From a virus, in the IMG/VR virus record IMGVR_UViG_3300030012_003676, positions 1 through 29,924 of that record: 29,924 nt of DNA; one strand, 5' to 3'. Made by a program: the position numbers and the translations under genes. Positions 776-29,100 of the stretch are shown here, in pieces. Numbering within the stretch: position 1 is the stretch's first letter; the number at the start of each line of letters is the position of its first letter. The notes beneath the pieces are model-generated. The model was not told where the DNA came from and ran no database searches. It worked only from the letters and a program-made list of their open reading frames with translations.

Positions 776-2649
776 TATAGTCCTATGTTCTCTCCAAGTC
801 TTAGACCTTCACGTATGCTTGGAATTATATTATCCTCAACAAAGCTTTCATGCATTACGTTTCCGGATATGTTAACATTTATAGCTTGTCCTTGTGGTCC
901 TTCTAAATTTGGGTCTACGAGAGGAGTAACTTGTACTCGTTCCGGACCAGATCCCTCACCTACCATCATTAATTGAGGTCCTGATGTAATAAAATCTGCA
1001 CCATATTGTGCTTTTTTAATCTCATCTGCATTCTTTAAACCTCTACTAACAGCTGCTGCTGCTGCTGCGATACCAAGTATAGTACCTGTAGGAGCAGGAT
1101 ACTTCTTTGAATATTTCATAAACTCACTATTAGCTGCCTCATACGCATTAGATAAAGCACTTGTAACCGATGCAACTTTTTCATTCTTTTGCAGTTTACC
1201 TATTGAATCTATAACACTTAAAGTTGTTTTAGTGCCTTTGGATTTTTCTTCTGCGTGTTTCTTTTCTTTGCTTGTCATAACATCTAACATTTGTCCTTGC
1301 TCACGCATTTTTAATATATATGCATCATTTAAATCTATTTGTAATTGTGTTGCTGCTGCGTCATTTTCTTTTTTCTTAATAAATTCATCTAATTTCTTAT
1401 TAAATTCATCTATTGTATCAGTACCATCATCACCATCAGTATCTGTATCAGTATCATCATCACCACCATTGTTATTAAATTCTTCTTCTGAACTCATTCG
1501 GTCTAAAAATGCTTGATGATTTGCTTTTATTTGTTCTTCTTCCTCTTTTAAATTATTAATAATAGCGTGTTGGCTACCTATTCTATCTTTACTTACATTA
1601 TTTTGAACTACTGCCATACCACCTAAGTTCATAGTAAATGATTCTGATGCATTTTGTTCAAGGTCAAACAATTTTCTTTCAGCTTTAATTCTTTTTTCTG
1701 TGATTTCTTCTAATTCTTCTGCTAATTGTTTTTGCAAAATACCTTGTTCCATTGCTTTTACTTGCTCAGTTTGCAATTTTACTATATCTTCAAGTGATGC
1801 TTTTTCTAAATCCAGATCGCCTAAATAACCTGAATATTCTTCTTTTAATTGTTGTATTGCAAATTTTCTTGACGTTTCAGCAGAATTTACATTAGTTAAT
1901 ACACCTAATAATTTTTCAAATTCTATTTTTTCTTTTATTGCTTCTTCAGAAGGATTGAGTGTAATTAAATCTGTAAATGATTTTGTCAAATCATTAAGTA
2001 CAGGAGCAAATCGTTCTCCTACTTTTTCTTGCAAGTCACCAAAGGCATTTGATGCTTGTGTTAATGCTCCTGTTAATGTTTGTGCTTCTTCTTTAGCAGT
2101 TCCTCTGAATTGATTTCTTATAAATGTTATACCTTCACCTGCTTTTAATTGTTCTGCTGTTAATTGTTTAAAAGCAGCAGGCAATTTTTCTCCTATCTCA
2201 CCTTGCATACCACTTAATGTTTTAGTAGTATTAATGACAGCAGATTGTAAAGAAATTCCTAAAGCAGCAGACAAATCAACCGATGCAGCTATAATCTCTT
2301 TAGTCTGTTCAGTTGATACACCTAATGATTTTACATATGCTTGTTGTGCAATTATTGCTTCATCACCAAATACTGAATTTTGTTGTAAAGCAGAAGCCTG
2401 TCTGATTAATTCATTTGTAGATGCACCTGCTGCAAATCTTAATTTTTTTTCTGCTAATTCTTGCTGTGCAAATAAATCAATGGATGAACGTATAGCACTT
2501 AACAATGCTTGTGAACCAAAATATGCTGCTGCTGCTGCTCCTGCCTGCTTTGCCATTTTGCCTAAAGCTGCATTTACTCCTTTAACTTGCTTTTCTGATT
2601 TTTTAGCACCTTTGGTCTTAACTTCTATAATATGTGTATTATCTGCCAT
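775..2649 (-). CDS. Tail tape measure protein
   Basis: This 624-residue protein should set tail length and thread the tube before DNA ejection. Supporting features are a long alanine- and glutamine-rich helical N-terminal half (residues about 15-230, with Ala runs near 36-42), a coiled-coil middle (about 240-400), and a hydrophobic Ala/Gly helix near 550-565 (GTILGIAAAAAAVS). It also follows the tail tube and frameshifted chaperone genes directly. Near residues 400-420 lies an acidic low-complexity linker of Asp, Thr and Gly (GGDDDTDTDTDGDDGTDT) that could be a flexible hinge or a variable repeat. The usual rule of about 1.5 angstroms per residue would give a tail near 95 nm. The start at 2649 overlaps the end of the chaperone extension by 11 nt. 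Family assignment rests on composition and position. Confidence 0.88.
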   Translation of the reverse strand: MADNTHIIEVKTKGAKKSEKQVKGVNAALGKMAKQAGAAAAAYFGSQALLSAIRSSIDLFAQQELAEKKLRFAAGASTNELIRQASALQQNSVFGDEAIIAQQAYVKSLGVSTEQTKEIIAASVDLSAALGISLQSAVINTTKTLSGMQGEIGEKLPAAFKQLTAEQLKAGEGITFIRNQFRGTAKEEAQTLTGALTQASNAFGDLQEKVGERFAPVLNDLTKSFTDLITLNPSEEAIKEKIEFEKLLGVLTNVNSAETSRKFAIQQLKEEYSGYLGDLDLEKASLEDIVKLQTEQVKAMEQGILQKQLAEELEEITEKRIKAERKLFDLEQNASESFTMNLGGMAVVQNNVSKDRIGSQHAIINNLKEEEEQIKANHQAFLDRMSSEEEFNNNGGDDDTDTDTDGDDGTDTIDEFNKKLDEFIKKKENDAAATQLQIDLNDAYILKMREQGQMLDVMTSKEKKHAEEKSKGTKTTLSVIDSIGKLQKNEKVASVTSALSNAYEAANSEFMKYSKKYPAPTGTILGIAAAAAAVSRGLKNADEIKKAQYGADFITSGPQLMMVGEGSGPERVQVTPLVDPNLEGPQGQAINVNISGNVMHESFVEDNIIPSIREGLRLGENIGL

Positions 2650-3318: not shown

Positions 3319-4320
3319 TTAAGCTGCTGTGTTAATAGTAATCACATCATTAGCTGTATTTGCTCCATCATAAGTAAATCTCAATGGTATGGTTTGTTTC
3401 CACCCATCATCATCAAAACTTATTCCTGCTTCATCAACAAAAACTTTATCACCTATAATCTGAAATACTCCTGTGTCCAGATCAAGTGCCATTCCTGCTT
3501 CATTGTTTATAGCATCATCAACTTCGCCATCTCTTTTACAAGTTAAATTACCTGTAACTTCATAAGGTCCTACAGCATATCCCATTGGTCTGAAATCATT
3601 ATTTTGGTCGAATCCGATTCTATTTACTGTTCTTGATATGTTTACATCAAAAGAATAAAGTAATAAATCTTCACCGTCTAATGTTGTAGTTGTTAAATCA
3701 TGCATGTTAAATAATCCTGTTGCAGCCTGAGTAGCCAATGTTGTTTCTGTACCACTTGAAAAGTTTAATGCTGCTTCAGTTGGTTTATAAGCCGTTTGGA
3801 ATGTAGCTGTGCAGACAACTACTCCACCATTACTCGAAATATCACCTGCCATGCTCAAAGAAGTACATAAACAAGATGTAAAGTGCATGTCTACTGTATC
3901 ACCATCATGTGAAGAATTTTCAAAGAATAGTGTTACAGGCACATTATTACTCGTGCCATGTGAATATGCAGTTATATCAGGCATAGACCCAAGTAATGCA
4001 TTAGCACCATCACCATCACCAAATAAATGTAAGCATACTTTATTAATAGCTTGTGGTGTAGAATGAAATGTAATTGAAATATCCCACATTACATCATGCT
4101 TTTGCCATTTTACCATGTCGTCTGATTGTGTCATTCCACCTTTACCTACTCTTGTTGGTGCTACACTCAATGTATGTTTAAATGCATCTGAGAATGTGAA
4201 GTCAGTTACAGGCATTACAATTCTTGTAGCATCTGTTGCTGCTGCTGTCCCTACTGTTGTTTCGTTAGCTATAATTACGCTAACATTCTGTTTTGACTGA
4301 AAAGTTCCACTTTTTGCCAT
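3319..4320 (-). CDS. Major tail (tube) protein
   Basis: A 333-residue beta-rich protein without membrane segments (MAKSGTFQSKQNVSVIIANE). The layout is typical of tail-tube monomers: an N-terminal strand region with FTFSDAFKHTLSVAPTRVG, a Ser/Gly/Thr-rich middle, and a C-terminal part with PYEVTGNLTCKRDGEV and DGWKQTIPLRFTYDG. The gene lies directly upstream of the frameshifted chaperones and tape measure. Its start overlaps the preceding stop as TAATG. I infer that it polymerises around the tape measure to form a non-contractile tube. No sheath gene is present, which supports siphovirus morphology. Confidence 0.8.
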   Translation of the reverse strand: MAKSGTFQSKQNVSVIIANETTVGTAAATDATRIVMPVTDFTFSDAFKHTLSVAPTRVGKGGMTQSDDMVKWQKHDVMWDISITFHSTPQAINKVCLHLFGDGDGANALLGSMPDITAYSHGTSNNVPVTLFFENSSHDGDTVDMHFTSCLCTSLSMAGDISSNGGVVVCTATFQTAYKPTEAALNFSSGTETTLATQAATGLFNMHDLTTTTLDGEDLLLYSFDVNISRTVNRIGFDQNNDFRPMGYAVGPYEVTGNLTCKRDGEVDDAINNEAGMALDLDTGVFQIIGDKVFVDEAGISFDDDGWKQTIPLRFTYDGANTANDVITINTAA

Positions 4321-4950: not shown

Positions 4951-5939
4951 TATCTCACCATCTCAATAGTTGAATTGCTTTTATTGGTTTGTTTTCTATG
5001 GTTACCATAAACCTCTACATTCCAAAAATCAGCTGCGTCAGCTGATGAACCTTGAAACCTTCCATACAAACCGTTGTGAATTTCTTGTAATCCACCTGTA
5101 ATTATTTGAGGTGCTTTTGTTGCTCCTTCTAATTTATCATTTGAAAGGTATTTAACTGTAAATGTAGCTGTTCCATAAACACCTGCTGTATCTATGTCAA
5201 TTCTAAGCAAATCATAATGTTCACCTTCATACTCCCCTGCTAATTCAACCAGATCCAATCCTGCTGAAACAACACTTTTATATAGTATTTTTCCTACAGC
5301 ATCTTTAGCATCGACTTCATGTGATAGTTTATATATTCCATCATTCAGCTTATCAACTATACCTGTTCTTGCTTCATTAGTAACTAATCCATGATAATAG
5401 TCTGCTTCTTCAGACATTCCTTCTTTTGCTCTAATTAAGTTAGCTGCTGCTATATAGCATACAGATTTAATTATAATAGGGTCATATTCCTCAACTCTGT
5501 TAGTAACAATTGGTGAGTCCAGATCGATTTGTTTTTGCTTTTCAAATGGTGTTGCATATCTTGCATCTACATAATTATGCAACTCTAAGCTTGCGTCTAC
5601 TAATGTCTGATTTAAGAAATTAGTAAAATCTTGACCAACTTCAAAAATCTGCTCATTGATTGTAGTGGCAGTATATGCGTCATTGTAATACTCTAATTTA
5701 TTTTCTGATGCTGTATATAACCACTCATTGTTTGCGTTAGGAGTATCATCTGCACTATTAGATGCTCCCTGCTCATCTCCATTTATAAAGAATACATCTA
5801 CAAATCCTACATTATGAAACGTATGTAAATTTGAGTTAGTGCTTGGATTATATACTTGTCTTTTAGAATCAAATTCATTTACTCTATTAAAGTATTTGTT
5901 AAAATCAGCAATACTTGCATAACTAAAATCTGTAGCCAT
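4950..5939 (-). CDS. Head-tail connector / adaptor protein
   Basis: A 329-residue protein. Residues about 105-190 include LHNYVDARYATPF, VEEYDPIIIKSVCYIAAANLIRA and EADYYHG, resembling the small head-tail adaptor family (HK97 gp6 / DUF1320 type: short helices with an LDxYLxxRY-like motif). It also carries extra N- and C-terminal domains (FHNVGFVDVFF; TATFTVKYLSNDKLEGA). That is longer than the usual 100-150 residue adaptor, so this may be an adaptor fused to a decoration or neck domain. The neighbouring tail terminator and tail tube fit the neck assignment. The start at 5939 follows the tiny gene's stop immediately. Confidence 0.6.
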   Translation of the reverse strand: MATDFSYASIADFNKYFNRVNEFDSKRQVYNPSTNSNLHTFHNVGFVDVFFINGDEQGASNSADDTPNANNEWLYTASENKLEYYNDAYTATTINEQIFEVGQDFTNFLNQTLVDASLELHNYVDARYATPFEKQKQIDLDSPIVTNRVEEYDPIIIKSVCYIAAANLIRAKEGMSEEADYYHGLVTNEARTGIVDKLNDGIYKLSHEVDAKDAVGKILYKSVVSAGLDLVELAGEYEGEHYDLLRIDIDTAGVYGTATFTVKYLSNDKLEGATKAPQIITGGLQEIHNGLYGRFQGSSADAADFWNVEVYGNHRKQTNKSNSTIEMVR

Positions 5940-6027: not shown

Positions 6028-7776
6028 CTATCCTAACAATGTTAGTCTTAATTTAGTTTTCATTTTCTCGTTTACACTTCTTGCATATATTGTTTGTATG
6101 CTATTATAACCTGTACCTACATAACTTACACCACCTGAGTGTGCTGAATGTGATTGTCCATGAACCTCAAATTGTCCCTCACTTACATGTGAAAATTGAC
6201 AATGTCCACGTTCATAGTCTATGCTTCCTACTATTGCGTCATTATGTAAAAGGTTTCCATTACCATCATCAAGCAAAAATGCACTTTTGTTTGGTATTGT
6301 TTTTCCTGTTACAGGGTCTTCTATTTCTTCTAATGGTTTACTTGAAGCAGGTCCGTATGATATACAATCTGTGTTATTTGTAGTAGTACCAACTAAAGTA
6401 CCCTCTACAACAGGAACATTGTTACTATCTTTTGCAGGAAACCTACCTACACCAAATGGTGTAGTTCCTGTGACATTACCTATTCCAACTCTTGTGTTTA
6501 CGTTATTAGATAAAGATGAAATTCTTATATCTCCATTTACTATTCCTATATTAACTCTCTTATTATGTAAACCTGAAGATGAATCGTAATATAATGCATC
6601 AAATCTGTCTTGTATCTTAGCTAATACTGCTACGTTAGAGCCTGCAAATGTTGTATCAGAAGAATCAACAGTAAATGCTATGTTTGTTTCGCTACTTACT
6701 GAATCAAATCCATCTACATGAAATTCATCTACAACTATAGTAAACGTATAAGTTGTGCCTGCAACTAATCCTGAATCATCTGATGCTTTTATATTATTTA
6801 AACCAAAATCTAAATAACCACCTTCTGTGTAAAAAGGTCCTATTGCTACAGATCCGGCAACAAGTCCATCACCAACTTTATCTGTTGTTCTTGATTTACC
6901 AAAGAATGCACCTGATTGCTTAAAATTTCCTGCAGAATCAGTCATACATAAACTGCTATTATGCACTAAGTTCTCATTACCAAACCAAAAACTAATAGCT
7001 GAATCGTCTGCATGAGCAGCTATTGTGCTACCAAATAGACCTCTGTCTACTGTTAAATTAAAGCCTGATATTGCTGTTATTCTCATTACTTCTGAACCAA
7101 CTAATATTAAATCATTTACTTTAAAAAGACTTGAGTTATCGGTTGTTCCACTAATATCTACTGCAAATGTTTCAGGATTTAAAACTGTATTTAAATCAGA
7201 ACCATCTACTGCTGCTGTACTTGGTGCTGCTACAGATACTCCTGAAGGTAAGAAAGAGTGTGTTCCGTCAGCTGCAAAAGCTGCTGATTCTACTGCACCA
7301 CCTGCTACATTTGCAGGAGTGTAAGATAAAAATCTTGAGTGTGGTAATGCTAAAAAATGTCCTGCAGGTAGTAAGCCACTAATAAATCTTGAGTCAGAAG
7401 TTCCTGAAGAATCTAAGTCAGTTGCTAAGTTTCTAACATCTGTATCACTATCATCTTTCCAATCTTTCAAAAGTATTTGTATTTCTGCTGCTATATTACT
7501 TTCGTTCTTGATCTGGATAACTTTGGCATTGTGTGCAGTTACTTGTCCAACATCTTTGTTAAATGAAGACAATGTATATAATTCATTTGATGAACCTGCT
7601 GTTCCATTATCAAATTCTTGTGTAATATCAAACATCTCTGTATACTGCTTATTTGTTTCACATACATACTCACCATCAGGAGTTGTAATAATCATCTTTA
7701 TATTAGCATTTTTGGCTAATGAGCCTGTACTAAGCTGTGATGAAGTGTTTATAGTTCTTGTTGGTCCGTATGCCAT
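6028..7776 (-). CDS. Large virion structural protein, possible tail fibre or appendage
   Basis: A 582-residue protein rich in Ser, Thr, Gly, Asn and Asp, with predicted beta content and no membrane segment. The N-terminus (MAYGPTRTINTSSQLSTGSLAKNANIKMIITTPDGEYVCETNKQ is its opening region, residues 1-44) may be the virion-anchoring part. The middle has alternating short strands (DLILVGSEVMRITAISGFNLTV), and the C-terminus contains His and Ser-rich segments (VHGQSHSAHSGGV). It is transcribed between the fibre genes and the neck genes, behind a clear TAGGAG site. No enzymatic motif is visible. A capsid appendage, decoration protein or fibre are all possible. Confidence 0.6.
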   Translation of the reverse strand: MAYGPTRTINTSSQLSTGSLAKNANIKMIITTPDGEYVCETNKQYTEMFDITQEFDNGTAGSSNELYTLSSFNKDVGQVTAHNAKVIQIKNESNIAAEIQILLKDWKDDSDTDVRNLATDLDSSGTSDSRFISGLLPAGHFLALPHSRFLSYTPANVAGGAVESAAFAADGTHSFLPSGVSVAAPSTAAVDGSDLNTVLNPETFAVDISGTTDNSSLFKVNDLILVGSEVMRITAISGFNLTVDRGLFGSTIAAHADDSAISFWFGNENLVHNSSLCMTDSAGNFKQSGAFFGKSRTTDKVGDGLVAGSVAIGPFYTEGGYLDFGLNNIKASDDSGLVAGTTYTFTIVVDEFHVDGFDSVSSETNIAFTVDSSDTTFAGSNVAVLAKIQDRFDALYYDSSSGLHNKRVNIGIVNGDIRISSLSNNVNTRVGIGNVTGTTPFGVGRFPAKDSNNVPVVEGTLVGTTTNNTDCISYGPASSKPLEEIEDPVTGKTIPNKSAFLLDDGNGNLLHNDAIVGSIDYERGHCQFSHVSEGQFEVHGQSHSAHSGGVSYVGTGYNSIQTIYARSVNEKMKTKLRLTLLG

Positions 7777-8645: not shown

Positions 8646-9833
8646 TTAATCAATATCCATTGTTACTGTTGAGTGTATCCAAAAACTTGTTCCGTCTGTT
8701 CCTGTTGTTTTTCTTACAGTTATGAACATAAAATCGCCTTGTGTAACAGATGTAGCATTAAAAGATGTTGTTTCTTTATGTAAAAATCTACTTGCAGAAC
8801 TAAAGTCAAATGTCATATATCCTAAATTATCTATTGTCATATTTGTGGTACTTGCTAATTCTGTATCTAATGTTGGTTTACTTGCTATCCATACACCAAC
8901 TTCTACATCGCTATCTGCTGATGCTCCTGATGATTCAACGTGAGCCATAAACTTTGTAACAGTACCACTATATGGTATTCTTTTACCTGCATATCTTATT
9001 ATTCTCCACATATCCTCTGCTGTGGTGTCATTATAATCACTAATATTTGTATTTGCTATACTTGTAACTCCAAATTCATCGTGATGTAGCGATACATAAA
9101 AAACATTATTAGAAGATAAACTTGCTTGAAAATAATACCAATCTAAATATGTTTTTGCTTTTGGTGCATTAAGTACACCATTGTTAGTTATAGGTATATC
9201 CTGCCCTGTGTCATCTGTAAAATATAAATTATTAGGTGTATCATTTTTAACCCATATTTGCCCTTTACCTGCTGTATCGCTACTTGCAGAAGATGCTTCA
9301 GTAATTTTTAAATATTTACTTAAAGTTACTATTTCTGATTCAAATTCTAATAAATCATCACCGTCATAATTAATTAAATCATTTCTGTATGTTGCTTCAC
9401 CAACTGCAATTCCACCATTAAAAAAATGTATTAATTGACTACCATTATCTAAAATATATACATCTCCACCATTAGCATCTAATGCTATATCACCTTCAAC
9501 ATCTAATGTTAAATTACCACCTGCTACAATAGTATCTAATGAGGTTATAGTTAAATCACCACTTGAATATGTTACATCTGATAATTCATCAAGAGATGAT
9601 GCACCACCAGATCCGGCTTCATCAGGTTCTGTTGATACATCAACTCCGTTTACTTTAAGTGTACCATTAATATTGACATTACCATTAGCAACCTGTAAAG
9701 GCGTTGGTTTTCCTGTAATTGTTATAGGTTTTAAGGTAGTATCTAAATTACTATCATTGCCAAGCGATATAGGATTTACTTTCTTCTTTTCAAATATCTG
9801 TAATAACTTTTTTAATATTTGAGTGAATGTCAT
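8646..9833 (-). CDS. Tail-fibre-like structural protein
   Basis: A 395-residue protein. After a short basic N-terminus (MTFTQILKKLLQIFEKKKV) comes a repeat-rich stalk (residues about 45-215) built of strand pairs such as ITSLDTIVAGGNLTLDVEGDIALDA and VYILDNGSQLIHFF. A C-terminal domain (residues about 225-395) includes KTYLDWYYFQASL and DVEVGVWIASKP. Stalk plus globular tip is the general plan of phage fibres. The N-terminal amphipathic helix may be the attachment peptide. The start overlaps the stop of the 49-residue membrane protein as TAATG. Receptor binding is inferred from architecture only. Confidence 0.6.
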   Translation of the reverse strand: MTFTQILKKLLQIFEKKKVNPISLGNDSNLDTTLKPITITGKPTPLQVANGNVNINGTLKVNGVDVSTEPDEAGSGGASSLDELSDVTYSSGDLTITSLDTIVAGGNLTLDVEGDIALDANGGDVYILDNGSQLIHFFNGGIAVGEATYRNDLINYDGDDLLEFESEIVTLSKYLKITEASSASSDTAGKGQIWVKNDTPNNLYFTDDTGQDIPITNNGVLNAPKAKTYLDWYYFQASLSSNNVFYVSLHHDEFGVTSIANTNISDYNDTTAEDMWRIIRYAGKRIPYSGTVTKFMAHVESSGASADSDVEVGVWIASKPTLDTELASTTNMTIDNLGYMTFDFSSASRFLHKETTSFNATSVTQGDFMFITVRKTTGTDGTSFWIHSTVTMDID

Positions 9834-9982
9834 TACTTCTTGCCTGTCACTTTATAAATTAATCCCTTTACTGAAGACCAGATCAAATCATCCATCTCAG
9901 TTGGTGACATAGCTACTGCTTTATCTACTACTAATATGATTATAGTTACTATCTGCCAATTGTCCATTAATAAGTCTATCAT
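9833..9982 (-). CDS. Small single-span membrane protein, holin-like
   Basis: A 49-residue frame starting at ATG 9982 (MIDLLMDNWQIVTIILVVDK, then AVAMSPTEMDDLIWSSVKGL...). AAAGGAG lies upstream, and TAATG junctions occur on both sides. Residues about 8-24 form one hydrophobic helix. The SPTEMDDLIW segment after it resembles small lysis-region proteins of marine phages (from memory). Position downstream of lysozyme and two other membrane proteins suggests a holin or spanin-type accessory. Confidence 0.6.
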   Translation of the reverse strand: MIDLLMDNWQIVTIIILVVDKAVAMSPTEMDDLIWSSVKGLIYKVTGKK

Positions 9983-11929: not shown

Positions 11930-12335
11930 TGTACTGTACGCATTGTGCTATCTTGTTGCTGTTTCTCAATGCTCGATCTGGACATTGCCTTGCCCATAAA
12001 CTGTCTAACATTTCTTTACTTGCTTCGATATACTCAAATCTTTCTATATGTTTTAATGTTTTTTTGAATTGAAATAACTTGTAATGCAACTGATAAAACA
12101 TATCTTCTAAAACTTCTTGTGCTTCTATTGGTAGTTCCTCAAAGTTTTTTATTTTTCGTATTAAGATTTTTTTATTTTTTTCAAGCTTTCTTTGAACAAT
12201 AAGTTCACAAATATCTTCTTCGAGTTCTAATGATTTTATTAAAAAACCATATCCAATTGTGTCATTACCCAAATGGTCTTTATAAACAGTTTTACGATAA
12301 CCTTCGTTTCGCTTGATTTCGTCTAATAAAGACAT
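11922..12335 (-). CDS. Endolysin, T4-type lysozyme (GH24)
   Basis: A 137-residue muramidase that cleaves the N-acetylmuramic acid to N-acetylglucosamine bond of peptidoglycan at lysis. The catalytic triad E11, D20 and T26 is visible in NEGYRKTVYKDHLGNDTIGYG, at the same residue numbers as in T4 lysozyme. The C-terminal part (MLDSLWARQCPDRALRNSN) retains the helical pattern of the family's second lobe. There is no signal peptide, so a holin is needed for export; the adjoining membrane proteins supply candidates. It is slightly shorter than T4 lysozyme (164 residues). Confidence 0.9.
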   Translation of the reverse strand: MSLLDEIKRNEGYRKTVYKDHLGNDTIGYGFLIKSLELEEDICELIVQRKLEKNKKILIRKIKNFEELPIEAQEVLEDMFYQLHYKLFQFKKTLKHIERFEYIEASKEMLDSLWARQCPDRALRNSNKIAQCVQYNE

Positions 12336-18159: not shown

Positions 18160-19427
18160 CTGTCTTTTACTCCTATTGATGGTTTGTTTATGGGATATTC
18201 CCAATTAATGAAATAGCCAAAAGAATCTGAAAGGTGTGTAAGTTTCTGATTGCTTTTGTCAATCTCTCTTGTGTTTTCTTTGTTTGTGACTTGTTCTAAA
18301 TCTCTTATCAATCCTTTGCACTTTGGGTCTATAACTATATTGTCTTTAGATAGCTGATTATTAACAGCATTAACTCTATTAATTACTCTTGGATTTATAT
18401 GTGCTACTTTTACAATAAACTTATTCTGTCTTATGATACTTATATCGCTATAACGTGCAGATGAGTTTTTAGCAGCACCTGTAGCATCCGGATATGCATA
18501 GTAATAGTTGTTCGGATACATTTCTCTAATTGTTTCACACATTCTTTGTGTAGGTAAATCACCATCTCCTCCATGTGATAATGTTATTTCGTTGATAACG
18601 TGTATACTGCGATCTGGTCTAATCTGCATGATTGTAGTGGATAGAGGGTCTGTATTGAAATCCATTCCCAATCTGATTGGTAGACTTGGGTCATACTCAC
18701 ATTGTCTGACATGTTTATCTCTATCAAAGGCATAGTATGTTGCTCCTTGTGTTAAGTTGACAAATTTTCCATATAAATAAGCTTCTAATAACTTTTCATC
18801 ATAATTATCTATTAATGATTGTATATATGATTCAGGTAGATAATGATTATCTGTAGTCTTTCCATGTACTAATAACTTATCATCACTTTTCTGATTTACC
18901 ATGTACTCCCATGTGTAACCAAAACCTTCAGGAGTAGTCGTTATAAATAGTTCTGCATCTTCACATCCTCTAAGTCTTCCTAATGCTTTTTGTACAGTTA
19001 TTTCAGCTGTCTTGTAGTTTTCTATATCTAATTCATCTATCCCACAATAGGTATATGATGCACCTACAATCCTTTGTGGATAACGTGTTTGATAAATTTG
19101 TATGTTTCCGTATACAGTTTTAAATCTATGTTGAGATATGTTATAAGTATATGCAATGCCATTTCTTTCTAATATCTCTTTAAATGGTTCAACAAAAACT
19201 TGGTCTGCTAAGTTGTAAGTTGGATATAACACTAATCCATTGCTCTTACCATCTTTGTTTAGTTTAGTAATTAAACAATAAAAAACTTTACTTAATAGAG
19301 TAAAAGATTTACCACTCCCAAAGCCACCAACAAATGCACTTGATCTGGCTTTGTTTTTATTTGTAAGAAACTCCCATTGTGATGGAAAGTAATTCTTAGG
19401 ATGTAATGTCATTGGTTTAGATTTCAT
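18156..19427 (-). CDS. Terminase large subunit
   Basis: The packaging motor, 423 residues from ATG 19427 (a TTG three bases earlier is in frame but less likely). Walker A is GGFGSGKS (residues 34-41 of this start) and Walker B/acidic is TYCGIDELD near 130. The C-terminal RNase H-like nuclease has its acidic residues in RLGMDFNTDP (near 240), YAYPDATGAA (near 310) and LSDSFGYFINW (near 405). The ATPase pulls DNA into the prohead; the nuclease cuts the concatemer. It overlaps the small terminase by 11 nt and the portal by 4 nt. The length is on the short side of the family but all core motifs are present. Confidence 0.93.
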   Translation of the reverse strand: MKSKPMTLHPKNYFPSQWEFLTNKNKARSSAFVGGFGSGKSFTLLSKVFYCLITKLNKDGKSNGLVLYPTYNLADQVFVEPFKEILERNGIAYTYNISQHRFKTVYGNIQIYQTRYPQRIVGASYTYCGIDELDIENYKTAEITVQKALGRLRGCEDAELFITTTPEGFGYTWEYMVNQKSDDKLLVHGKTTDNHYLPESYIQSLIDNYDEKLLEAYLYGKFVNLTQGATYYAFDRDKHVRQCEYDPSLPIRLGMDFNTDPLSTTIMQIRPDRSIHVINEITLSHGGDGDLPTQRMCETIREMYPNNYYYAYPDATGAAKNSSARYSDISIIRQNKFIVKVAHINPRVINRVNAVNNQLSKDNIVIDPKCKGLIRDLEQVTNKENTREIDKSNQKLTHLSDSFGYFINWEYPINKPSIGVKDR

Positions 19428-19767
19428 CAAAGTTAATCTCAGAAATTGGTTTTACCACTTCAAACTCCTGCTTCTCTACATATCCTCTCTTTTTTCCTCT
19501 TGTCTTTAAATAAAATATTATACAAGTATTATCACCCTTTTTAATATTGTCTAATAGTTTACTCTCTGCTAAGTCTAACAATGACTCCTCAATTTCTTTA
19601 CATCTTATTTTAAATTCTTCATCTTTATCAATCCAACTATAATAGGTCCTTCTATGTATATTAGCAGCAATACAAGCCTCTGAAATGTGACCATGTTTGC
19701 TTTCCAAAGCTTTTAAGAAGTTTTCTTTTTTAGTTAAAGTTTGTGTATTTTGTGTATTTTTAGACAT
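19417..19767 (-). CDS. Terminase small subunit
   Basis: A 116-residue protein with an N-terminal helix-turn-helix (residues about 12-45, KENFLKALESKHGHISEACI and AANIHRRTYYSWIDKD) of the kind that recognises the packaging start. An oligomerisation helix (KIRCKEIEESLLDLAESKLL) and a C-terminal region that would contact the large subunit follow. It lies immediately before the large subunit and overlaps it by 11 nt. Its ribosome site is weak (AGG about 11 nt away). Confidence 0.82.
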   Translation of the reverse strand: MSKNTQNTQTLTKKENFLKALESKHGHISEACIAANIHRRTYYSWIDKDEEFKIRCKEIEESLLDLAESKLLDNIKKGDNTCIIFYLKTRGKKRGYVEKQEFEVVKPISEINFDEI

Positions 19768-19815: not shown

Positions 19816-20424
19816 TTAAAATAATGTACCTTGTTTTGTTAGGTTATCTACTCTTTCTTTTGCCTTATTATAATATTCTTCATCTATCTCTATACCAACT
19901 AAATCAACCCCAAAGTAATGACAAGCAACAGCAATACTACCACTACCCAAATGAGTATCTAATATCTTTTGTCCTTTTTCTGAATAGTTATGCAATAGCC
20001 ATTCATATAGTTTTACAGGTTTCTGTGTAGGGTGTATTCTTTTTCCTTTTTGTTCTGACCTATGAAATCTAAAAAACCTAACTGCTTTATCAAAAGATGT
20101 CCAAGCCATTTCACCATCTGCAAAAGAAAACCCATCATTTTTTTTATCCCACACAATCCAACAACTGCTATCATAAGGAATTTTGCTAATAAAATGATTA
20201 GCACCCCATATTATTTGATTCTTACTTATTCTTATAAGTTCATTAAAATACTTTTTATTTGGTGATTTATTATCCCAATTTTTAATTTTATGTTTGCTAC
20301 CACTCCAATTATTATTGCCGTCCATTCCCAATCCATAAGGTGGGTCTACAATAGCCAAATCAAAATGGTTATCATCATAATCCTTCATAACATTCATACA
20401 ATCATCTAATATTAAATCTATCAT
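19816..20424 (-). CDS. DNA amino-methyltransferase (N6-adenine or N4-cytosine), DPPY type
   Basis: A 202-residue enzyme transferring methyl from S-adenosylmethionine to an exocyclic amino group in DNA. Catalytic motif IV is D27-P-P-Y30 (LAIVDPPYGLG). The S-adenosylmethionine-binding motif I comes later in ILDTHLGSGSIAVACHYFG, followed by LVGIEIDEEYY. The order IV before I marks the beta class. HPTQKPVKLYEWLL is the usual conserved bridge between the two. There is no partner nuclease, so this is an orphan phage enzyme, probably for evasion of host restriction. Its recognition sequence cannot be read from the protein. The CCAGATC signal in this genome makes it an obvious suspect. Confidence 0.88.
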   Translation of the reverse strand: MIDLILDDCMNVMKDYDDNHFDLAIVDPPYGLGMDGNNNWSGSKHKIKNWDNKSPNKKYFNELIRISKNQIIWGANHFISKIPYDSSCWIVWDKKNDGFSFADGEMAWTSFDKAVRFFRFHRSEQKGKRIHPTQKPVKLYEWLLHNYSEKGQKILDTHLGSGSIAVACHYFGVDLVGIEIDEEYYNKAKERVDNLTKQGTLF

Positions 20425-20443: not shown

Positions 20444-20815
20444 TTACTTTCTTGATATAATCGTTTTATATTCTTTGCCTATTACTTGCTCAACTTTAAG
20501 ACTTAAATATTCAGGGCAATCATCAAATATAAAGTTTTCTTCGATAAGTGCATCAATTAAATGTTTACATCCACCAATTAAGTTGTCCAGATCAAGAAGT
20601 CTCTTTCTAATACTTATAATAACTAATCTGTATTTCTTTGGTTCTGCATCAGGTATTTTATTCAGCTTCATTTGATTTCTTATTAATAAAGCATATTCCT
20701 TTTTGTCTCTACGTTTTACTGCCCAATGCTCTCTATCGAGTACGTTTCTTGATTTAATTCTTACAGGTATGTCAATAATAGAAGGCATAAAGTCACGCAT
20801 CCGACGACACTCCAT
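20444..20815 (-). CDS. RusA-like Holliday junction resolvase
   Basis: A 123-residue endonuclease-like protein with the RusA signature: IIDIPVRIKSRNVLDREHWA at the N-terminus and D-x-D-N in KRLLDLDNLIGGCKHLIDAL, the metal-binding motif. Further acidic residues follow in FDDCPEYLSLKVEQV. RusA enzymes cut recombination junctions as symmetric dimers, here probably resolving branched replication or recombination DNA before packaging. The start is uncertain: ATG 20815, 20800 and 20788 are all in frame, and the last best matches the usual beginning of the family. Confidence 0.83.
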   Translation of the reverse strand: MECRRMRDFMPSIIDIPVRIKSRNVLDREHWAVKRRDKKEYALLIRNQMKLNKIPDAEPKKYRLVIISIRKRLLDLDNLIGGCKHLIDALIEENFIFDDCPEYLSLKVEQVIGKEYKTIISRK

Positions 20816-20860: not shown

Positions 20861-21115
20861 TTATGCTTGTGCTTTCCATGGTTTTGTTTCCTTAAAAGTT
20901 AATTCTTTTACATCTATCTCTTTAAATTTTTTGTTTTTAGCTGACCTTAAATAAAATATCATTGCAGAAAAGTCTAAAAAATTAATATGATACATTTGTG
21001 TTTGATGTATAAATGTTGCAAACATACATATTGTTTTCTTTTCATGCTTTTGTAAAAATTCATCGTAGTCTGTAATGTTCATTATCACATACTCATGTAA
21101 TTGCATTCTATTCAT
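20861..21115 (-). CDS. Small unknown early protein
   Basis: An 84-residue protein (MNRMQLHEYVIMNITDYDEF...) in ATGA overlap with the cytosine methyltransferase stop, with GAGG about 8 nt before the ATG. It has predicted strands and a Lys-rich C-terminus (FKEIDVKELTFKETKPWKAQ), no Cys pairs and no membrane segment. I recognise no family. Tight coupling to a DNA methyltransferase suggests an early function, possibly related to host takeover or DNA modification. Confidence 0.6.
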   Translation of the reverse strand: MNRMQLHEYVIMNITDYDEFLQKHEKKTICMFATFIHQTQMYHINFLDFSAMIFYLRSAKNKKFKEIDVKELTFKETKPWKAQA

Positions 21116-21747
21116 ACAGATGCCTCTAATATTTCTTTACATAATTCATAAGGCACTTTACTTCTTTCATACGCATTTTTTTTTGTTGCTTGCATTCCTG
21201 CACTATTATCGCCTCTTGGTGCAGGTTCATGGTGACAAATCTTACTACTGTTTCTACATTCTGAACGTGGACACCAACCATCAGGATTAAATAGTGAATA
21301 TAAATTATTTGTAAATATATCAGTAGGTTTTGCCAAGCTAAAGCCATACTTACAATACCATACAGTTGTTTTTGGTATACCTTTCATAAAAGGCATTTTT
21401 CTTAATATTGCTCTTGGGTTTTCTATATAATATATACAATTAAAATGTTTAATTATTTCTATCGTTTTTTTCACAAGCCTGTCTGATTTCTTTGCAAAAT
21501 CACTATATGCTACTCTGTCTCTTGTTCTATGATGTCTGCATCCTGCTAAACTATAGCTTTGACATGGTGGACTTGCCCAGATCAAATCAGGTTTAAAAGG
21601 TATATCACTTATTTCTAACATCTCTACATCCTTAACTAAGTCTATTTTATCAAAAGATTCATTGTCAACAGTAAAAGTTTCATGTCCTAATTCCTCAGCA
21701 ACACTGCTAAAACTTCTTGAACCTGCAAACAATTCTAACACCTTCAT
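21112..21747 (-). CDS. Short C5-cytosine DNA methyltransferase
   Basis: A 211-residue enzyme that would make 5-methylcytosine using S-adenosylmethionine. Motif I is LELFAGSRS (residues 4-12). Motif IV is ASPPCQSYS with the catalytic Cys62, and the ENP of IYYIENPRAIL stands for motif VI (usually ENV). RSKVPYELCKEIL at the C-terminus occupies the place of motif X. The target recognition domain between motifs VIII and IX is nearly missing, so it is much shorter than typical 300-400 residue enzymes, but such compact versions occur in phages. TAATG coupling links it to the upstream gene. The target sequence is unknown. Confidence 0.85.
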   Translation of the reverse strand: MKVLELFAGSRSFSSVAEELGHETFTVDNESFDKIDLVKDVEMLEISDIPFKPDLIWASPPCQSYSLAGCRHHRTRDRVAYSDFAKKSDRLVKKTIEIIKHFNCIYYIENPRAILRKMPFMKGIPKTTVWYCKYGFSLAKPTDIFTNNLYSLFNPDGWCPRSECRNSSKICHHEPAPRGDNSAGMQATKKNAYERSKVPYELCKEILEASV

Positions 21748-22121: not shown

Positions 22122-22393
22122 AGATTCTCCTTTAAATATGTGCTTAAATAATAATGATTTTCTTTCCATACGTTAACATCAAACTTATCCTCAAAGTCTT
22201 TTAGTGTCATACTATGTCTCATAATATGATGTGTTCTACATAATGGAACACATGAGTAATGTTCTATTAAATCAGGCTTTTTTCTGTCTCTACCCATTCC
22301 GATCTGGTGCAAATGGTCTGCATCACATGGTCCTCTAAAACATACTATGCACTTTTGTTTTTTAATATAATCTATAAAGTCAATTGGCATCAT
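22118..22393 (-). CDS. HNH endonuclease-like protein
   Basis: A 91-residue protein with a compact zinc-bound HNH fold. C15-x2-C18 and C48 ... C52 flank the catalytic D26-H27 (CDADHLHQIGMGRDRKKPD) and the H55-H56 ... H60 helix (VPLCRTHHIMRH). The arrangement resembles the YbcO/DUF968 nucleases of phage recombination modules. It lies between the replication initiator and the methyltransferases in overlapping frames (ATGA at both ends), so it is more likely part of the early operon than a homing intruder. It could also assist packaging like other phage HNH proteins, but it is far from the terminase. Confidence 0.8.
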   Translation of the reverse strand: MMPIDFIDYIKKQKCIVCFRGPCDADHLHQIGMGRDRKKPDLIEHYSCVPLCRTHHIMRHSMTLKDFEDKFDVNVWKENHYYLSTYLKENL

Positions 22394-23184
22394 ATTTTAT
22401 TTGGATGTAATTGGTCTCCACAACAACGACTATCTTCTATATGTGGCTTTTTATAAAAATCTGATTTATTACATTTTTGACAATAAGCCAACTTATTATA
22501 TCCTGTTGTGTCAAACTTAAAATCTTCATAAACATATTTGGTAGATTTTGGAATATTCCAATCCTGTGTGTTTTGCAACCATTTGCTTAACCTGCGTTTA
22601 ATATCAAAAGTTTTTTGCATTTCGTATCTCATTTTTTGACCATTAACATTAGATTCTGTCCAATAATCGCAAAAGTTTTTTACCATAGTTTCATCAAATT
22701 TTTCTTTGTTTTCTTTTGAAATTCCAATAACTAAATTTATAAATTTTTCTTCTCTTTGTTTAATTGTTTCTTTTATTAAGTTATTATTGTTTGATTTTGA
22801 TTGCAGTTTGTTTTCAGTTTGTCTTTGATCTGGTCGCATGTTGTTTTCAGTTTGTATATTCTGATAACTATCATAATTACTTATAGTTATACATGTTGCT
22901 TTGGCTAATGGATTTACAACAATCATATCTTCAGTTTCCATTAATTTTAAATAGGACCTAAGCTTTGTTGTACCCCAATTAAATTGTTTACATAGTTGCT
23001 GTTGCGATGTGACAAAACTGCCTCTTTTTACATTTAACATGTGATTACCTAATAAAAACTTGCCCTCACTATGGTTTGCTCTTAATAGCATCCAGATCCA
23101 TGCTTCAAACTTAGAAAAGGTCCTGCGTTCTTTAAATATAGGATTTTCTATAATTTTTCTGTGTAAGCTTATCCAACCTTTCAT
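22390..23184 (-). CDS. Phage replication initiator / replisome organiser
   Basis: 264 residues from ATG 23184 (MKGWISLHRKIIENPIFKER), which has AAAGGA at the right distance. The ATG at 23199 lacks one. The first 115 residues form a winged-helix domain of the DnaD/replisome-organiser type: WISLHRKI, SKFEAWIWMLLRANHSEGKF, LKRGSFVTSQQQLCKQFNWG-style helices, then CITISNYDSYQ. A charged linker rich in Asn, Gln and Lys follows. A C-terminal zinc-finger-like end carries YCQKC ... SRCC. Such proteins bind the phage origin and recruit host helicase. Direct repeats within the linker region often mark the origin in this family, but I see none convincing here. Confidence 0.78.
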   Translation of the reverse strand: MKGWISLHRKIIENPIFKERRTFSKFEAWIWMLLRANHSEGKFLLGNHMLNVKRGSFVTSQQQLCKQFNWGTTKLRSYLKLMETEDMIVVNPLAKATCITISNYDSYQNIQTENNMRPDQRQTENKLQSKSNNNNLIKETIKQREEKFINLVIGISKENKEKFDETMVKNFCDYWTESNVNGQKMRYEMQKTFDIKRRLSKWLQNTQDWNIPKSTKYVYEDFKFDTTGYNKLAYCQKCNKSDFYKKPHIEDSRCCGDQLHPNKI

Positions 23185-23276: not shown

Positions 23277-23894
23277 TTAAAACGGAATTTCATCCTTTTT
23301 TTCTAATGGAACAAAGTCATCAGGCATTCCACCTTCTTCCGATTCTTCAGGTGTATTATTTTCTTCAGGACCTTTAGAACGTCTTTGTAGTTCTGAGTTA
23401 GCTTCTTCTCTTTGCCAATCCACATTAGAATTTCCTGCAACCCATTTCACATAATCTTCGTCAACATCTTTCCATTCTTTACCATTATGTTTACCAAAAT
23501 TAATGATATATTTAACAGTTCCATCTTTACCACTTTCTGTTGTGGTTTTTTCAGATTTTTTTGATCTGGACTTGTCAACATTATATGATTCAATCTCATT
23601 TGCAGAAGCAAATTCTGAACCAAACCAACCTGCTGCTGACAATGCTCGCCCTAATGCATGTGTTTCAGTTGCTTCAAGTGTCTTTGCTTTACCTAATTCA
23701 CCTAATGCATTACCTGTGTATGTTCTTGCAGTATTTTCGCTATAAATGGTCAATATTGCTTTTACTATAACAACACCACTTTCATACACTACATCTGTTT
23801 CTAATGAATAGTTCTTTCTTCCAACTTCATCAAGAAGCATATCCATCCTTTCAACTACTGTATAATAGTCTTTACCTTTTAGTTTTATTGGCAT
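23277..23894 (-). CDS. Rad52/Erf-like single-strand annealing protein with SSB-like tail
   Basis: 205 residues. Residues 1-105 show the pattern of phage single-strand annealing proteins (KLKGKDYYTVVERMDMLLDE; YTGNALGELGKAKTLEATET; HALGRALSAAGWFGS). Residues 128-172 (YIINFGKHNGKEWKDVDEDY; VKWVAGNSNVDW) match a small domain found at the end of ExoX-type exonucleases and other DNA-repair proteins. After an acidic linker the protein ends KKDEIPF, nearly the DDDIPF tip by which bacterial SSB recruits partner enzymes. The role is probably annealing and recombination during replication. The start is ATG 23894 with AGAGGA 7 nt before it. The three-part layout is what I see; the function is inferred. 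Confidence 0.75.
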   Translation of the reverse strand: MPIKLKGKDYYTVVERMDMLLDEVGRKNYSLETDVVYESGVVIVKAILTIYSENTARTYTGNALGELGKAKTLEATETHALGRALSAAGWFGSEFASANEIESYNVDKSRSKKSEKTTTESGKDGTVKYIINFGKHNGKEWKDVDEDYVKWVAGNSNVDWQREEANSELQRRSKGPEENNTPEESEEGGMPDDFVPLEKKDEIPF

Positions 23895-24650: not shown

Positions 24651-25706
24651 CTAAATTTGCTCTTCCAATTCTATAGAAATGTTATAAAGGTTAGGAGTTT
24701 TTTGAACGATCTGGTAGTTGCTTTTCATTCTTACTAATGCAAAACCTTGTGGTGAAAAATCATCTTTATCTACTTGCAACATCATTGGCAAATGACCCCC
24801 AAGTGATTTATGAACACAATTACTATAAAAGTCTATCGCATTATTAATATTATATTGACTTTTGTTATCAACACCATATACTGCATGATTATCTTTTGCG
24901 TTCCAACCATTGCTATTCATCATCATTAGTTGATTCATAACTTTTTCAGGAGCAAGGCTGTCAAACTGTAGTTTCCATTTTCTTCTACCTGAACGTCTTT
25001 GAAAGTTATCGCCTTCTTCTGAGTTAGTAAGTCCCCATGGTTCTGTAATCCAATTATTAAGCTTGGACCAATTCAGATTAGATATGGTTTTACCTGTTAT
25101 TGTTTCTTTCTGTGTTACACCATAGTCTATAGAAAAAGTTTCAGATAAATTAGCATTTACAGGAAACTCAAATGCTTTACCCCACATAATTGAACCAAGC
25201 TTTAATTTGTTAAATGTAACACCATTTAAAGAATTTAAATTCAGTCTAAATGTTCTGTAGTCTTGATCTGGTTTATCTGTAATTGACATCAAACTCCAAC
25301 CATCATAGTCAGGTATGCTATTTGGTACATAATTGACCAATTGAGACATTGCTAAATTTATCGAGTTTTGGTCATTAAGTGCCTCTATGCTTGGTATTAA
25401 TCCTGATGTGTGCAAATTATGCCCTAATATCGCAAAAAAATCATAATTCCATAAACCTTGTTCAATAACATTTGTAAAATTATCAGAATTAGGTACAATT
25501 TTATAATCCATCGCAATATTTACATTACCTTGTATATCAACTTGCATAAATTTTGCAGGGTCTAATTGTAGTAACTTTATTAATTGTTCATCTGTTATGT
25601 CTGCTCCATCTACACTTATAGCATCTAATGCACCTGATGCATATTGCCATAATGGATAACTAACATATAATTTTGGTTGTGTTGCAATTTGGTAATAACT
25701 ATCCAT
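24651..25706 (-). CDS. Tail-associated structural protein, last gene of the late transcript
   Basis: 351 residues from ATG 25706 (MDSYYQIATQPKLYVSYPLW...), with AAGGA 7 nt upstream. An in-frame TTG just before is less likely. The protein is beta-rich, and its YPLWQYASGALDAIS start resembles tail-tip-region proteins of other marine phages (from memory). A central FSIDYGVTQKETITGKTISN, a WGLTNSEEGDNFQRRSGRRK segment and a C-terminal strand region (YQIVQKTPNLYNISIELEEQ) resemble distal-tail (Dit-like) proteins. It overlaps the previous gene by 8 nt and is followed by the terminator. Distal tail or tail fibre attachment are the likely roles. Confidence 0.6.
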   Translation of the reverse strand: MDSYYQIATQPKLYVSYPLWQYASGALDAISVDGADITDEQLIKLLQLDPAKFMQVDIQGNVNIAMDYKIVPNSDNFTNVIEQGLWNYDFFAILGHNLHTSGLIPSIEALNDQNSINLAMSQLVNYVPNSIPDYDGWSLMSITDKPDQDYRTFRLNLNSLNGVTFNKLKLGSIMWGKAFEFPVNANLSETFSIDYGVTQKETITGKTISNLNWSKLNNWITEPWGLTNSEEGDNFQRRSGRRKWKLQFDSLAPEKVMNQLMMMNSNGWNAKDNHAVYGVDNKSQYNINNAIDFYSNCVHKSLGGHLPMMLQVDKDDFSPQGFALVRMKSNYQIVQKTPNLYNISIELEEQI

Positions 25707-26161: not shown

Positions 26162-29100
26162 TTAATCTTGTAAAATTATATTTATCATTTCAAGTATTGT
26201 TGAAACATTTATAGCATCACTATTTAATTTTAATTTATTTTGGTCAGATATAGAAAGTGTTTCTGTCCCTAATACATGATTAACTGCTGTTGTTAAATCA
26301 TTTACGTTTATAAATCCGTCATTATTTAAATCATAATATGGAATCTCTATACCATTATCAACTGTTGCATTAGGATTATAATTATAATTTGGAATTTGTA
26401 ACCCTAAACCTTCATAATAAGTATTATATTGCTGCATGTTGCCTATAATCTCATAATTTTCTTGTTCAGGCATAACAAATCCATGATTGCCATCTATGCC
26501 TAAATAATGTAGTTGAACTGCCTTAATTTTCATGCTATTTATACCTAAGTCAGTTTCCATAATAATCCATAAGGGATACACAGGTTGTGAATTGACATAA
26601 CTAACAATACTATAATCTATATTAAATGCAAAATCATTATTAATTAGTGGAATATGTAGTATATCTCCAATTTGCAAGTTGCAATAATTAAGTGTTAGTT
26701 CTGCATTGATTACATTATGCACATTACAATTATTAAGTAAACTATACTTTAAAAAATTATCAACTGTATTATGGTCAGAATGATATTTTAAATTAATTGT
26801 TTTTCTAACATCTTCAGGAATTATATTATAATTTTCATAAGCAGTCAATTCATAATCAGGTAATAATTCATTTATTGACATTGTTCTTGTTTCTTCATAT
26901 CTGTTAAATCCATTGTCAAATCTAAAGAAAGCATCAACTTCTGTGTAAATATCTTCTCTTTTAGTTTGGTCAAAATTATATTTAATGATGTCATCCAGAT
27001 CAAGAATTACATCTATATCTTCATAAGTGTATGAATCTTTAATAGTTAAAAATCCAAATGTGCCATCCATGTTAAATTTAGGATAAGACTTTGACTCTTT
27101 ACATATGTCTTCTATCAGTCTTTTGCCTGATGTCTTTCTATTTAAACTAAATGACATTTTGAAATTATTATGTGCTTGCCTTGATTCTTGTATAGACTCT
27201 ATATCAAATTTTGAATAGTCAGGCATGCCTACTAATTCATTATTTGCTTTTCCGAAATGCATCTCATTAACTAAAATGTTCATTATTATGTCTGTTGGTT
27301 TTTCTATTAATCCATTTGTTGTTAATGTTAGTGCTTCGCCTTGAAGATAACTATTATATATAGTAATGATTTCATTAATAATAGGGTCAAAGCTATATAA
27401 ATTACTTTCAATTAAAGTAGAAAAATATGGAATTGGTCTAAATTCACCAAGATAATGTGTCCCATCTAAATCTAATTGTGTAAAGAATACAGCAGAATTA
27501 TTCACAAGACCTTGGTATGTAGCACCTTCATGGAAAGTGTAGTATCCTACTAATGTGCCTGTATCATTTCTAATTTCATCAAAACTTGTATCAAAGTTAC
27601 CATCAAAGTTTTGAATTATATGGTCTAAATACGTAGGTAAATTAATGAATATTTCTTCAAATGAATCTATTTCATTCATAGGTATTTCTGAAAATGTTAA
27701 ATTTCCTGCATGTGAATGATAAAATGGGTCTATATAATTTACATTAACTAAATGAGGTGTCCCTGAAACAGCAACATCAGGTGGTAAATTATCAGGTGTG
27801 TATCCATGTGCTGTGTCTGTTTCTGTTAAATTGTTTAGATTTACATGATATACACTTAATGCATTTTCCCAATTGTCCATATTTATAGTCCTATATGTAA
27901 AAGAAAAATCATAATCCCAATTTCCAAAATTTTCATTATTAAATATGTATCTATAAATAAGTTTGCCAAAACTTTTTAAAAAATGCTCAGTAAAAAAGCA
28001 TCGATGATTGTAAGCTGTAGGTTGTAATAAAGGGTCAATATTATACTTAATTTCAATATTTGAATTTATAGATTGAATAATCTCAGAAGATAAATTGCCT
28101 GAAAATTCTGCTGAAGCATCACGGTGTCCGTCACCATTATGAATGATATAAACTACTCTTAAAAAAGATTTCATTAATAAATCTGTAAGCATGTAATAAC
28201 TATTATAAAAAGGTGATGAATGTAATCCTTGCATATTATTTTCAATAGCAGCTTGCACTATTTCTTGATAATTTGAAGGTTCAAAAATTAATCCTAATTC
28301 TTCTTTGGTATATATGATAACATTACCATTACTGTCTTCATAAGGAATTACATTGTCAGCTATTTCTATCATTGCGTTTGCAAATCCGTTTAATAGTTGT
28401 TCGCTATCTTCATTTACTGCATCAGCGTTTAACAATAATGCTTGCTCGTATGAAATGTCATCAGTAATACTTAAATATGATTGGTAGCTTTCTGCATCTA
28501 TCTGCTCTGTAAAGGTATGATTTTTTCTACCTTTTACTGAACCAAATAATTTTTTTGTTCTTATGTCTTCTATTTGTAATGCGTGTACTAAGCCCATACC
28601 ACTTAATTGCAATCCTGAAGTCATAGTATTATTTTCATGCGATGTATTACCAAAAGAAAGTTTTGATTCATGTATTAATATCTTGTCTATATCTTGCTGC
28701 TCTTGTATTTCTGCATCATCACCATAATACTTGCCTTGTATAGGTGTCCAGATCGGATGCCTATCCTGACCAATAATAGCACTTCCCCTTGTTCCATAAA
28801 AGTTACATGTCATAAAAGATTCTTCATCAATATCACATTTTATAGGACATTTTGCATAAGGATTATTGTTATCAATAATATTTTCGCCTTCAGGTGCAGG
28901 ATCTGGTTCGAAAGTTTCAACTTCGTGTTCAAATGACGTTCCCTCCATAATTGTTATAAAACCTGTTGAAATTGGTGCAAAAGTAGACTCCTCATTATCG
29001 TTTCTTGCTAAAAGCCAATGCATAATTGTGTTTCTAAAAGAATCATCTTTTCTATAGGTTGCATTATTACTACCATCTTCAACTCTTAAAGATATGTAGT

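Follow-up and report, generated by a model that had tools for sequence, protein, structure and literature searches.

Restriction-site avoidance in phages, as described in PMC6286503, purges short words from a genome and enriches no word. Marine viral methylomes contain methylated motifs that include CCWGG, GGCC, GAGCTC, and GATC, and, in the account given in PMC9516812, this methylation is ascribed mostly to earlier hosts and not to viral enzymes. Phage Chi sites are short, asymmetric, over-represented words that are read whole; PMC3784561 reports a median observed/expected ratio (O/E) of 2.3–3.1 in the classes that have such over-representation, and clustering near the replication origin or packaging site. 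Uptake signal sequences (USS) accumulate slowly in Pasteurellaceae prophages, saturate near 750 per Mb, and come in two dialects, as set out in PMC6776037. Here, we analyze a heptamer, CCAGATC (GATCTGG on the opposite strand), in the 29,924-base IMG/VR record IMGVR_UViG_3300030012_003676 (hereafter 'the window', meaning the whole stretch of DNA analyzed), which belongs to a tailed marine phage whose main genes are encoded by the minus strand.

The window purges GATC, CCAG, CTAG, GGCC, CACTG, and GAGCT, as in restriction-site avoidance, but the overlap of two of these avoided words is enriched 11- to 17-fold. It contains C5 and N6 methyltransferase genes, as expected for phage motif methylation, but a tolerated site need not multiply, whereas the window uses the positions compatible with the heptamer above every control word analyzed. 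Its word is short, asymmetric, and over-represented, like Chi, but is enriched well beyond the Chi median, is evenly spaced, and is made of banned tetramers. Its density (29 copies per 29.9 kb, ~970 per Mb), its occurrence in both orientations, and the dialects described below resemble those of USS, but no enriched host was found and its tetramer confinement has no USS counterpart. The literature searched did not contain CCAGATC as a whole word, and no description of a fused-banned-word pattern was found in titles or beginnings of abstracts among the matches listed for over-represented words together with phage methyltransferases, Chi in phages, SAR11 phages, pelagiphage motifs, and uptake sequences.

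Direct counting finds 30 GATC in the window, of which 29 are inside CCAGATC/GATCTGG, in agreement with an initial annotation made from the sequence alone; the remaining GATC, at positions 6851–6854, is in ACAGATC (ACAGATCCGG), and the shorter word CAGATC contains 30 of 30. Expectations based on dinucleotides are 75 GATC and 1.7 CCAGATC, close to the ~80 and 1–2 first estimated, and the order-2 Markov expectation for CCAGATC is 2.6, such that O/E ranges from 11 (order-2) to 17 (dinucleotide). In the k-mer and Markov comparison that the initial annotation had proposed, CCAGATC is the most significant strand-balanced 6- to 8-mer of the window. A second confinement had escaped that annotation: CCAG/CTGG, for which 104 copies are expected from dinucleotides, likewise is restricted to CCAGATC (29 of 29 copies). 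With CCAG/CTGG confined as well, the heptamer amounts to two otherwise banned tetramers that overlap by one base. Further words are purged from the window (observed/expected: CTAG, 0/84; GGCC, 0/23; CACTG, 1/43; GAGCT, 1/37). Both tetramers are rarer than codon use predicts (30 GATC vs. 68.6 and 29 CCAG vs. 89.6 in codon shuffles), as restriction avoidance requires; restriction avoidance also requires that no enriched word contain the avoided site, and here an enriched word does. The observation is confirmed and is stronger than first stated.

Neither codon usage nor the two bans come close to accounting for the abundance of the fused word. Codon-preserving shuffles of the 41 window genes (1000 shuffles) yield 4.7 ± 1.5 heptamers, with a maximum of 11, as compared to 29 in the window; the possibility raised at the outset that such shuffles might reproduce the pattern is not borne out. 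Models that contain the two bans and allow synonymous changes only give similarly low numbers: two runs of a synonymous Monte Carlo simulation, with both bans imposed and the heptamer tolerated, give 9.0 and 5.7 heptamers, with a maximum of 12, and a mutation walk from shuffled genomes to the banned state gives a mean of 7.1, with a maximum of 11 in 12 runs. The window contains 76 protein-compatible CCAGATC positions, of which 27 are used. None of 658 control heptamers, each having the same GC count, none of the six banned words inside, and at least 30 allowed positions in the window, matches 27/76; their mean use is 2.7% and their maximum is 13/49. Where Pro-Asp is followed by C, the sequence is CCAGATC in 6 of 7 cases, and where Asp-Leu is followed by G, the sequence is GATCTGG in 9 of 26 cases, yet CTG accounts for only 22 of 706 Leu codons. 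Across the portal and terminase genes, CCAGATC is present at 7 of 274 compatible positions in 42 other phage sequences vs. 4 of 10 in the window. Only two compatible positions are one change short of CCAGATC; most such neighbours hold a banned word, and the scarcity of near-misses therefore is not independent evidence. The 27 genic sites use all six codon phasings (9, 2, and 3 for GATCTGG; 6, 3, and 4 for CCAGATC), as the initial annotation had noted. An explanation in terms of protein or codons is rejected by the phasings, the shuffles, the Pro-Asp and Asp-Leu counts, and the control words, and the first suggestion of a selected DNA signal is upheld by the phasings, the shuffles, and the use of compatible positions.

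The 29 sites are distributed over the length of the window, in a 15:14 ratio of orientations. Plus-strand copies are at 947–953, 1812–1818, 3477–3483, 5249–5255, 5519–5525, 9607–9613, 9878–9884, 13900–13906, 15627–15633, 17103–17109, 20587–20593, 21577–21583, 23092–23098, 26995–27001, and 28748–28754; minus-strand copies are at 7510–7516, 10831–10837, 11975–11981, 12588–12594, 15287–15293, 17580–17586, 18611–18617, 19342–19348, 22301–22307, 22827–22833, 23563–23569, 24708–24714, 25265–25271, and 28900–28906. Twenty-seven are within listed genes, one of them (21577–21583) within the C5 methyltransferase gene, and two (9878–9884 and 12588–12594) are outside listed genes. The sites are spaced more evenly than uniform random placement predicts (coefficient of variation, 0.57; p=0.0007), and the 27 genic sites also are more even than a random pick among protein-compatible positions (p=0.00035). 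In phage operator and stoperator arrays, most sites are intergenic or share one orientation relative to transcription; with 27 of 29 sites genic and the orientations balanced, an array of this kind is rejected. The base that follows CCAGATC is A in 13 copies, C in 6, G in 10, and T in none, in accord with the initial annotation; avoidance of AGATCT, which is absent from the window, may account for the absence of T. Two bases before CCAGATC, G is present in 15 of 29 copies and T in only 1 of 29.

Comparison to related phages shows the same state in a second lineage, with a word that differs by one base, CCTGATC. A census covered 268 sequences, each 3 kb or longer (the window plus loci L009–L278, several of which overlap one contig, such that not all are independent); a sequence qualified if it had eight or more GATC of which no fewer than half followed a single three-base context, a criterion blind to other frames. 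Apart from the window, just five loci qualify, all of the CCTGATC lineage, and a family-wide universal signal is rejected. The fractions of GATC within CCTGATC are 21/21 in L015, 17/17 in L161, 9/9 in L069, 8/8 in L016, and 9/10 in L020, and the fractions of CCTG/CAGG within CCTGAT are, in the same order, 32/33, 22/22, 13/16, 17/18, and 17/18. The five loci are mutually 93–99.6% identical in their main alignments and, as close kin, therefore constitute one independent repeat, not five. L015 uses 23 of 39 CCTGATC-compatible positions, and none of 539 ban-free control words in L015 reaches this value (mean, 2.0%; maximum, 4/15). The 26 sites in 12.2 kb of L161 and L015 combined are more even than uniform random placement predicts (p=0.0026); for L015 alone, given the allowed positions, the evidence for evenness is weak (p=0.039). 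Four other loci, L200, L111, L031, and L230, at first resembled GATC confinement and have no shared heptamer. L236 (10.6 kb), which was picked up through a 33% homolog of the L015 C5 methyltransferase, is a weaker, possible third case: GATC is rare (9 vs. 37 expected), and 7 of the 9 are in GAGATCC (0.3 expected from the order-2 model), four on one strand and three on the other.

The sites turn over between relatives. In the aligned parts of nine loci (L015, L016, L020, L069, L013, L009, L017, L014, and L028), no window site coincides with a CCAGATC or CCTGATC, and an origin of the sites at conserved positions is rejected. Over 5 kb, L140 and the window are 79.6% identical; L140 lacks the heptamer, and its 13 GATC stand in diverse contexts, five of them at positions where the window reads GAC for GAT. 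L239 (a locus that is one contig with L068 and L246) has no GATC in 12.9 kb. Its identity to L015 is 95.1% across 1515 bases around the terminase gene, 96.4% across 754 bases around the RusA gene, and 85.5–91.7% elsewhere; upstream, its identity to L161 is 81.6%. At the four L015 sites of the terminase stretch, L239 reads GACCAGG (twice), GGAAGTGG, and GATAAAG. Phages with and without the mark thus differ by ~5% around the terminase gene and by 8–18% in other aligned parts. We conclude that confinement, enrichment, and turnover hold in both lineages, and that even spacing is firm in the window and less so in the second lineage.

The two bans are separable across the wider family, as viewed in 96 sequences that are 6 kb or longer and of which some overlap. 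In distant relatives, each ban occurs alone (L263, 0 CCAG and 40 GATC; L273, 0 GATC and 52 CCAG), and the two bans therefore have separate causes. Both bans are present in L278, and nearly both in L272 (3 CCAG vs. 73 expected), and none of these four sequences contains CCAGATC. Different phages ban CCAG and CCTG in different five-base contexts: the only surviving context is CCAGC in L047 and L048, CCAGT in L040, and CCTGA in L015; L139 keeps CCAGA in 17 of 20 CCAG; and, in L025, 36 of 37 CCTG are CCTGG, in contrast to most family members, from which CCWGG is nearly absent.

The window encodes a terminase large subunit (18156–19430, minus strand), which marks it as a tailed phage; a conserved 'portal' protein (16798–18204, minus strand), which has no PHROG or Pfam match, is named by its adjacency to terminase, and served as bait for relatives; and also a major head protein, a tape-measure-like protein, a DnaD-like loader, a RusA-like resolvase, and an HNH protein. 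Two DNA methyltransferase genes are present: one of N6/N4 type (19816–20424, minus strand; PF01555, 2.8e-19) and one, in an accessory slot upstream of terminase, for a 211-aa C5 cytosine DNA methyltransferase-like protein (21112–21747, minus strand; Pfam PF00145, 2.4e-06; PHROG 757, 1.9e-25). Structure prediction for the 211-aa protein with AlphaFold gave a poor model (mean pLDDT of 58, three sequences), and a fold search with it returned nothing below E 0.001; the model was not used. A search for relatives of the 1226-aa protein found none.

A SAR11-like host is plausible for the window because the head protein, gene order, and avoided words of HTVC026P (L280, MN698240), a Pelagibacter phage grown on a SAR11 strain, resemble those of the window. 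The major head proteins are 27% identical; the order of genes is comparable, running from HNH and DnaD through terminase and portal to capsid; and two strongly avoided words are common to both (in HTVC026P, CACTG, 1 vs. 43 expected, and AGCTC, 4 vs. 48 expected). Alignment of the portal protein against genome contigs found no relative, and a search with the N6 methyltransferase found five distant relatives, none marine by title. One genome from the latter search is alphaproteobacterial, and CCAGATC was counted in 385 genomes of its class; interpretation of the counts is complicated by the presence of CTAG, an often depleted word, in the reversed control. Stretches from 48 of the 385 genomes were examined, of which 43 were readable: 40 in two rounds (18/20 and 17/20 readable), plus eight dense genomes. 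Three genomes of 6.2–6.5 Mb reach the CCAGATC density of the window (~1 per 1.2 kb); stretches of these three and of five more high-count genomes have a GC content of 0.62–0.69 and hold 8–23 copies vs. 2.0–5.0 expected, with GATC unconfined. The 40 further stretches (35 readable) contained no GATC-confined genome.

In the second lineage, the content of one accessory slot differs between contigs with CCTGATC and a sister contig without it. L015, L161, and L069 encode, between a DnaD-like gene and the terminase gene, a 290-aa C5 cytosine methyltransferase (Pfam, 2.1e-67) whose best solved relative is the HhaI methylase, and L239 has an unlike, 208-aa protein in that slot and no 290-aa C5 enzyme. 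Thus, the enzyme is present in all three of the CCTGATC contigs that extend across the slot (L016 and L020 do not), and the sister L239 has neither enzyme nor motif. The RusA-like gene and a gene for a 133-aa PDDEXK-like protein are nearly the same in L015 and in motif-free L239, and are rejected as the cause of the motif. An N6 methyltransferase is disfavoured as the writer of CCTGATC: the same 203-aa enzyme is present in L069 and L239, of which only L069 has the motif; an N6 methyltransferase was not found in L015, and its presence does not track the motif in the second lineage.

We propose that CCAGATC serves a phage lineage as a mark at the DNA level, that it is under positive selection, and that it is tied to phage C5 methylation and host restriction; we hold this proposal with something short of even confidence. 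According to this proposal, host restriction would ban both tetramers. The cytosine written apart in GAT-C-TGG (in the second lineage, GAT-C-AGG) belongs to both banned words, and, because both words share it, a single modified base, most simply a 5-methylcytosine from a phage accessory C5 methyltransferase, would protect both; the 211-aa C5-like protein is the candidate writer, and a modified cytosine at CCAGATC is inferred from the letters. Shielding explains tolerance, not multiplication, and the modified site therefore must add a benefit: it might serve as a self mark, a roadblock, or a 'do not degrade' sign, encountered every ~0.5–1 kb by a reader that could be a scanning or exonucleolytic defence or a phage nuclease. 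A mark that halted or calmed a processive nuclease or scanning defence would favour many evenly spaced sites on both strands. More tentatively still, the word may be a lineage-specific, self-written epigenetic address, in which methylated GAT-C-NGG, for which the genome has been recoded at a large share of protein-compatible positions and with even spacing, causes a scanning nuclease or defence, of host or phage, to read the DNA as self, and which can be gained or lost with its writer. The initial annotation had offered modification, packaging, recombination, and uptake signals as options; modification fares best of these, on the evidence of one methyltransferase comparison and the shared-cytosine argument, and a tie to phage cytosine methylation and host restriction is the most likely account of a selected DNA-level mark.

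Several observations weigh against this proposal. The C5 proteins of the window and L015 are not homologs at E≤1e-4, though their words differ by only one base, and a one-base likeness with unrelated enzymes would be coincidence unless the bans set the word. C5 enzymes seldom have an asymmetric target of 7 bp. L139 has a 62% homolog of the window C5 protein, yet has no CCAGATC and has 12 unconfined GATC; L253, which also has a homolog and lacks the heptamer, shows no CCAGA preference; and, conversely, CCAGA is tolerated in the parts of L044 and L101 that were covered, in which no C5 enzyme of this kind was detected. The methyltransferase comparison is of one lineage pair, and one that differs by 8–18% in its other aligned parts. 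In bacterial stretches, CCAGATC often is 1.5- to 5-fold over the dinucleotide expectation, such that a slight excess is nothing unusual. No tagged host was found, and the stretches from the 48 genomes included no low-GC tagged genome.

The alternative that survives best, one that we consider doubtful, is a Chi-like function: a host nuclease of AddAB/RecBCD type would stop at CCWGATC, the sites would save broken or linear DNA and aid recombination, and the one-base dialect would be set by the host. The asymmetric 7-mer, the two orientations, the even spacing, and the very high use of permitted positions all are as such a function predicts, and it explains multiplication and evenness as well as a methylated mark does; the one-base difference fits two alleles of a single reader; over-representation of Chi in phages is documented (PMC3784561); and the eight GC-rich genome stretches, chosen for high counts and with GATC unconfined, have CCAGATC at ~3- to 6-fold over the dinucleotide expectation. 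A Chi-like function, however, leaves unexplained that the word is the overlap of two tetramers that are banned elsewhere, does not predict its absence from a phage with 80% identity across 5 kb and from one with 95–96% identity around the terminase gene, and must accommodate an O/E several times that of documented phage Chi; sampled bacterial stretches with GC below 0.36, of up to 20 kb each, hold 0–5 copies.

It is unlikely that the word is needed about once per kb as a site that a phage protein binds or nicks (in replication, packaging, or nucleoid structure, or as a T5-like nick). The DNA-level, strand-balanced, evenly spaced pattern is in keeping with such a site, as are the HNH protein, RusA-like resolvase, and DnaD-like loader of the window; but L239 lacks sites despite RusA-like, PDDEXK-like, and terminase genes near-identical to those of L015, and confinement of both tetramers is not explained.

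Equally to be doubted, and already disfavoured, is that the heptamer is a refuge only: that both tetramers are restricted, that the fused site is immune, and that sites accumulate as the sole legal way to keep the letters. The bans are widespread in the phage family, and some sites of L015 and L239 differ by single changes (GACCAGG vs. GATCAGG), which imply no direction. The ban models, however, reach less than half of the 29 sites observed, the orthologous positions in relatives mostly contain neither tetramer, and even spacing is not predicted. An uptake-type tag of a competent host, built up in phage DNA by transformation, is very improbable: the density is of the same order as in Pasteurellaceae prophages, which likewise have dialects (PMC6776037), but counts in the 385 genomes found no tagged host, confinement of GATC and CCAG is unexplained, and near relatives are entirely tag-free, as opposed to the slow accumulation described there.

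Other words stand out in the same sequences. CAGCAG is enriched in the window (46 vs. 13) with a strand bias of 9:37, as coding repeats would give. HTVC026P is nearly without GGTGA (0/32), CACTG (1/43), ACTGG (1/37), CCTTC (1/37), and CAGTC (2/38), and keeps CCAG mostly as CCAGC (78/87), with CCAGCA present 46 times vs. 13 expected and not evenly spaced. CCTGAT/ATCAGG is approximately threefold over-represented in L049, L024, L028, L036, L038, and L280, with a 21:20 distribution by strand in L280. In L273, L274, and L275, GATC is absent, CCTGA is absent or single, and a palindromic octamer, GTTTAAAC, possibly an operator, is present in 7–8 copies vs. 0.3–0.6 expected. AAGCCCC, likely another short signal, is present 13–16 times vs. 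1.2, strand-balanced, in L203, L205, and L217 (stretches of 176–181 kb contigs), and CGTATAAC is present 12 times vs. 0.5, six per strand, in L207.

Phages are known to delete restriction sites and to methylate them; in the window, two words are deleted and their overlap is installed at many permitted positions, a form not found described among the literature matches listed. If the proposed explanation is true, positive selection acts on a DNA mark as soon as it can be written, and CCAGATC and CCTGATC would be a counterpart of Chi or uptake sequences that the phage itself may write. The surviving context of a banned word (CCAGA, CCAGC, CCAGT, CCTGA, or CCTGG) suggests a computational route to the methyltransferase specificities of uncultured marine phages. 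The existence of two dialects, together with a close, mark-free sister phage, makes the idea directly testable.

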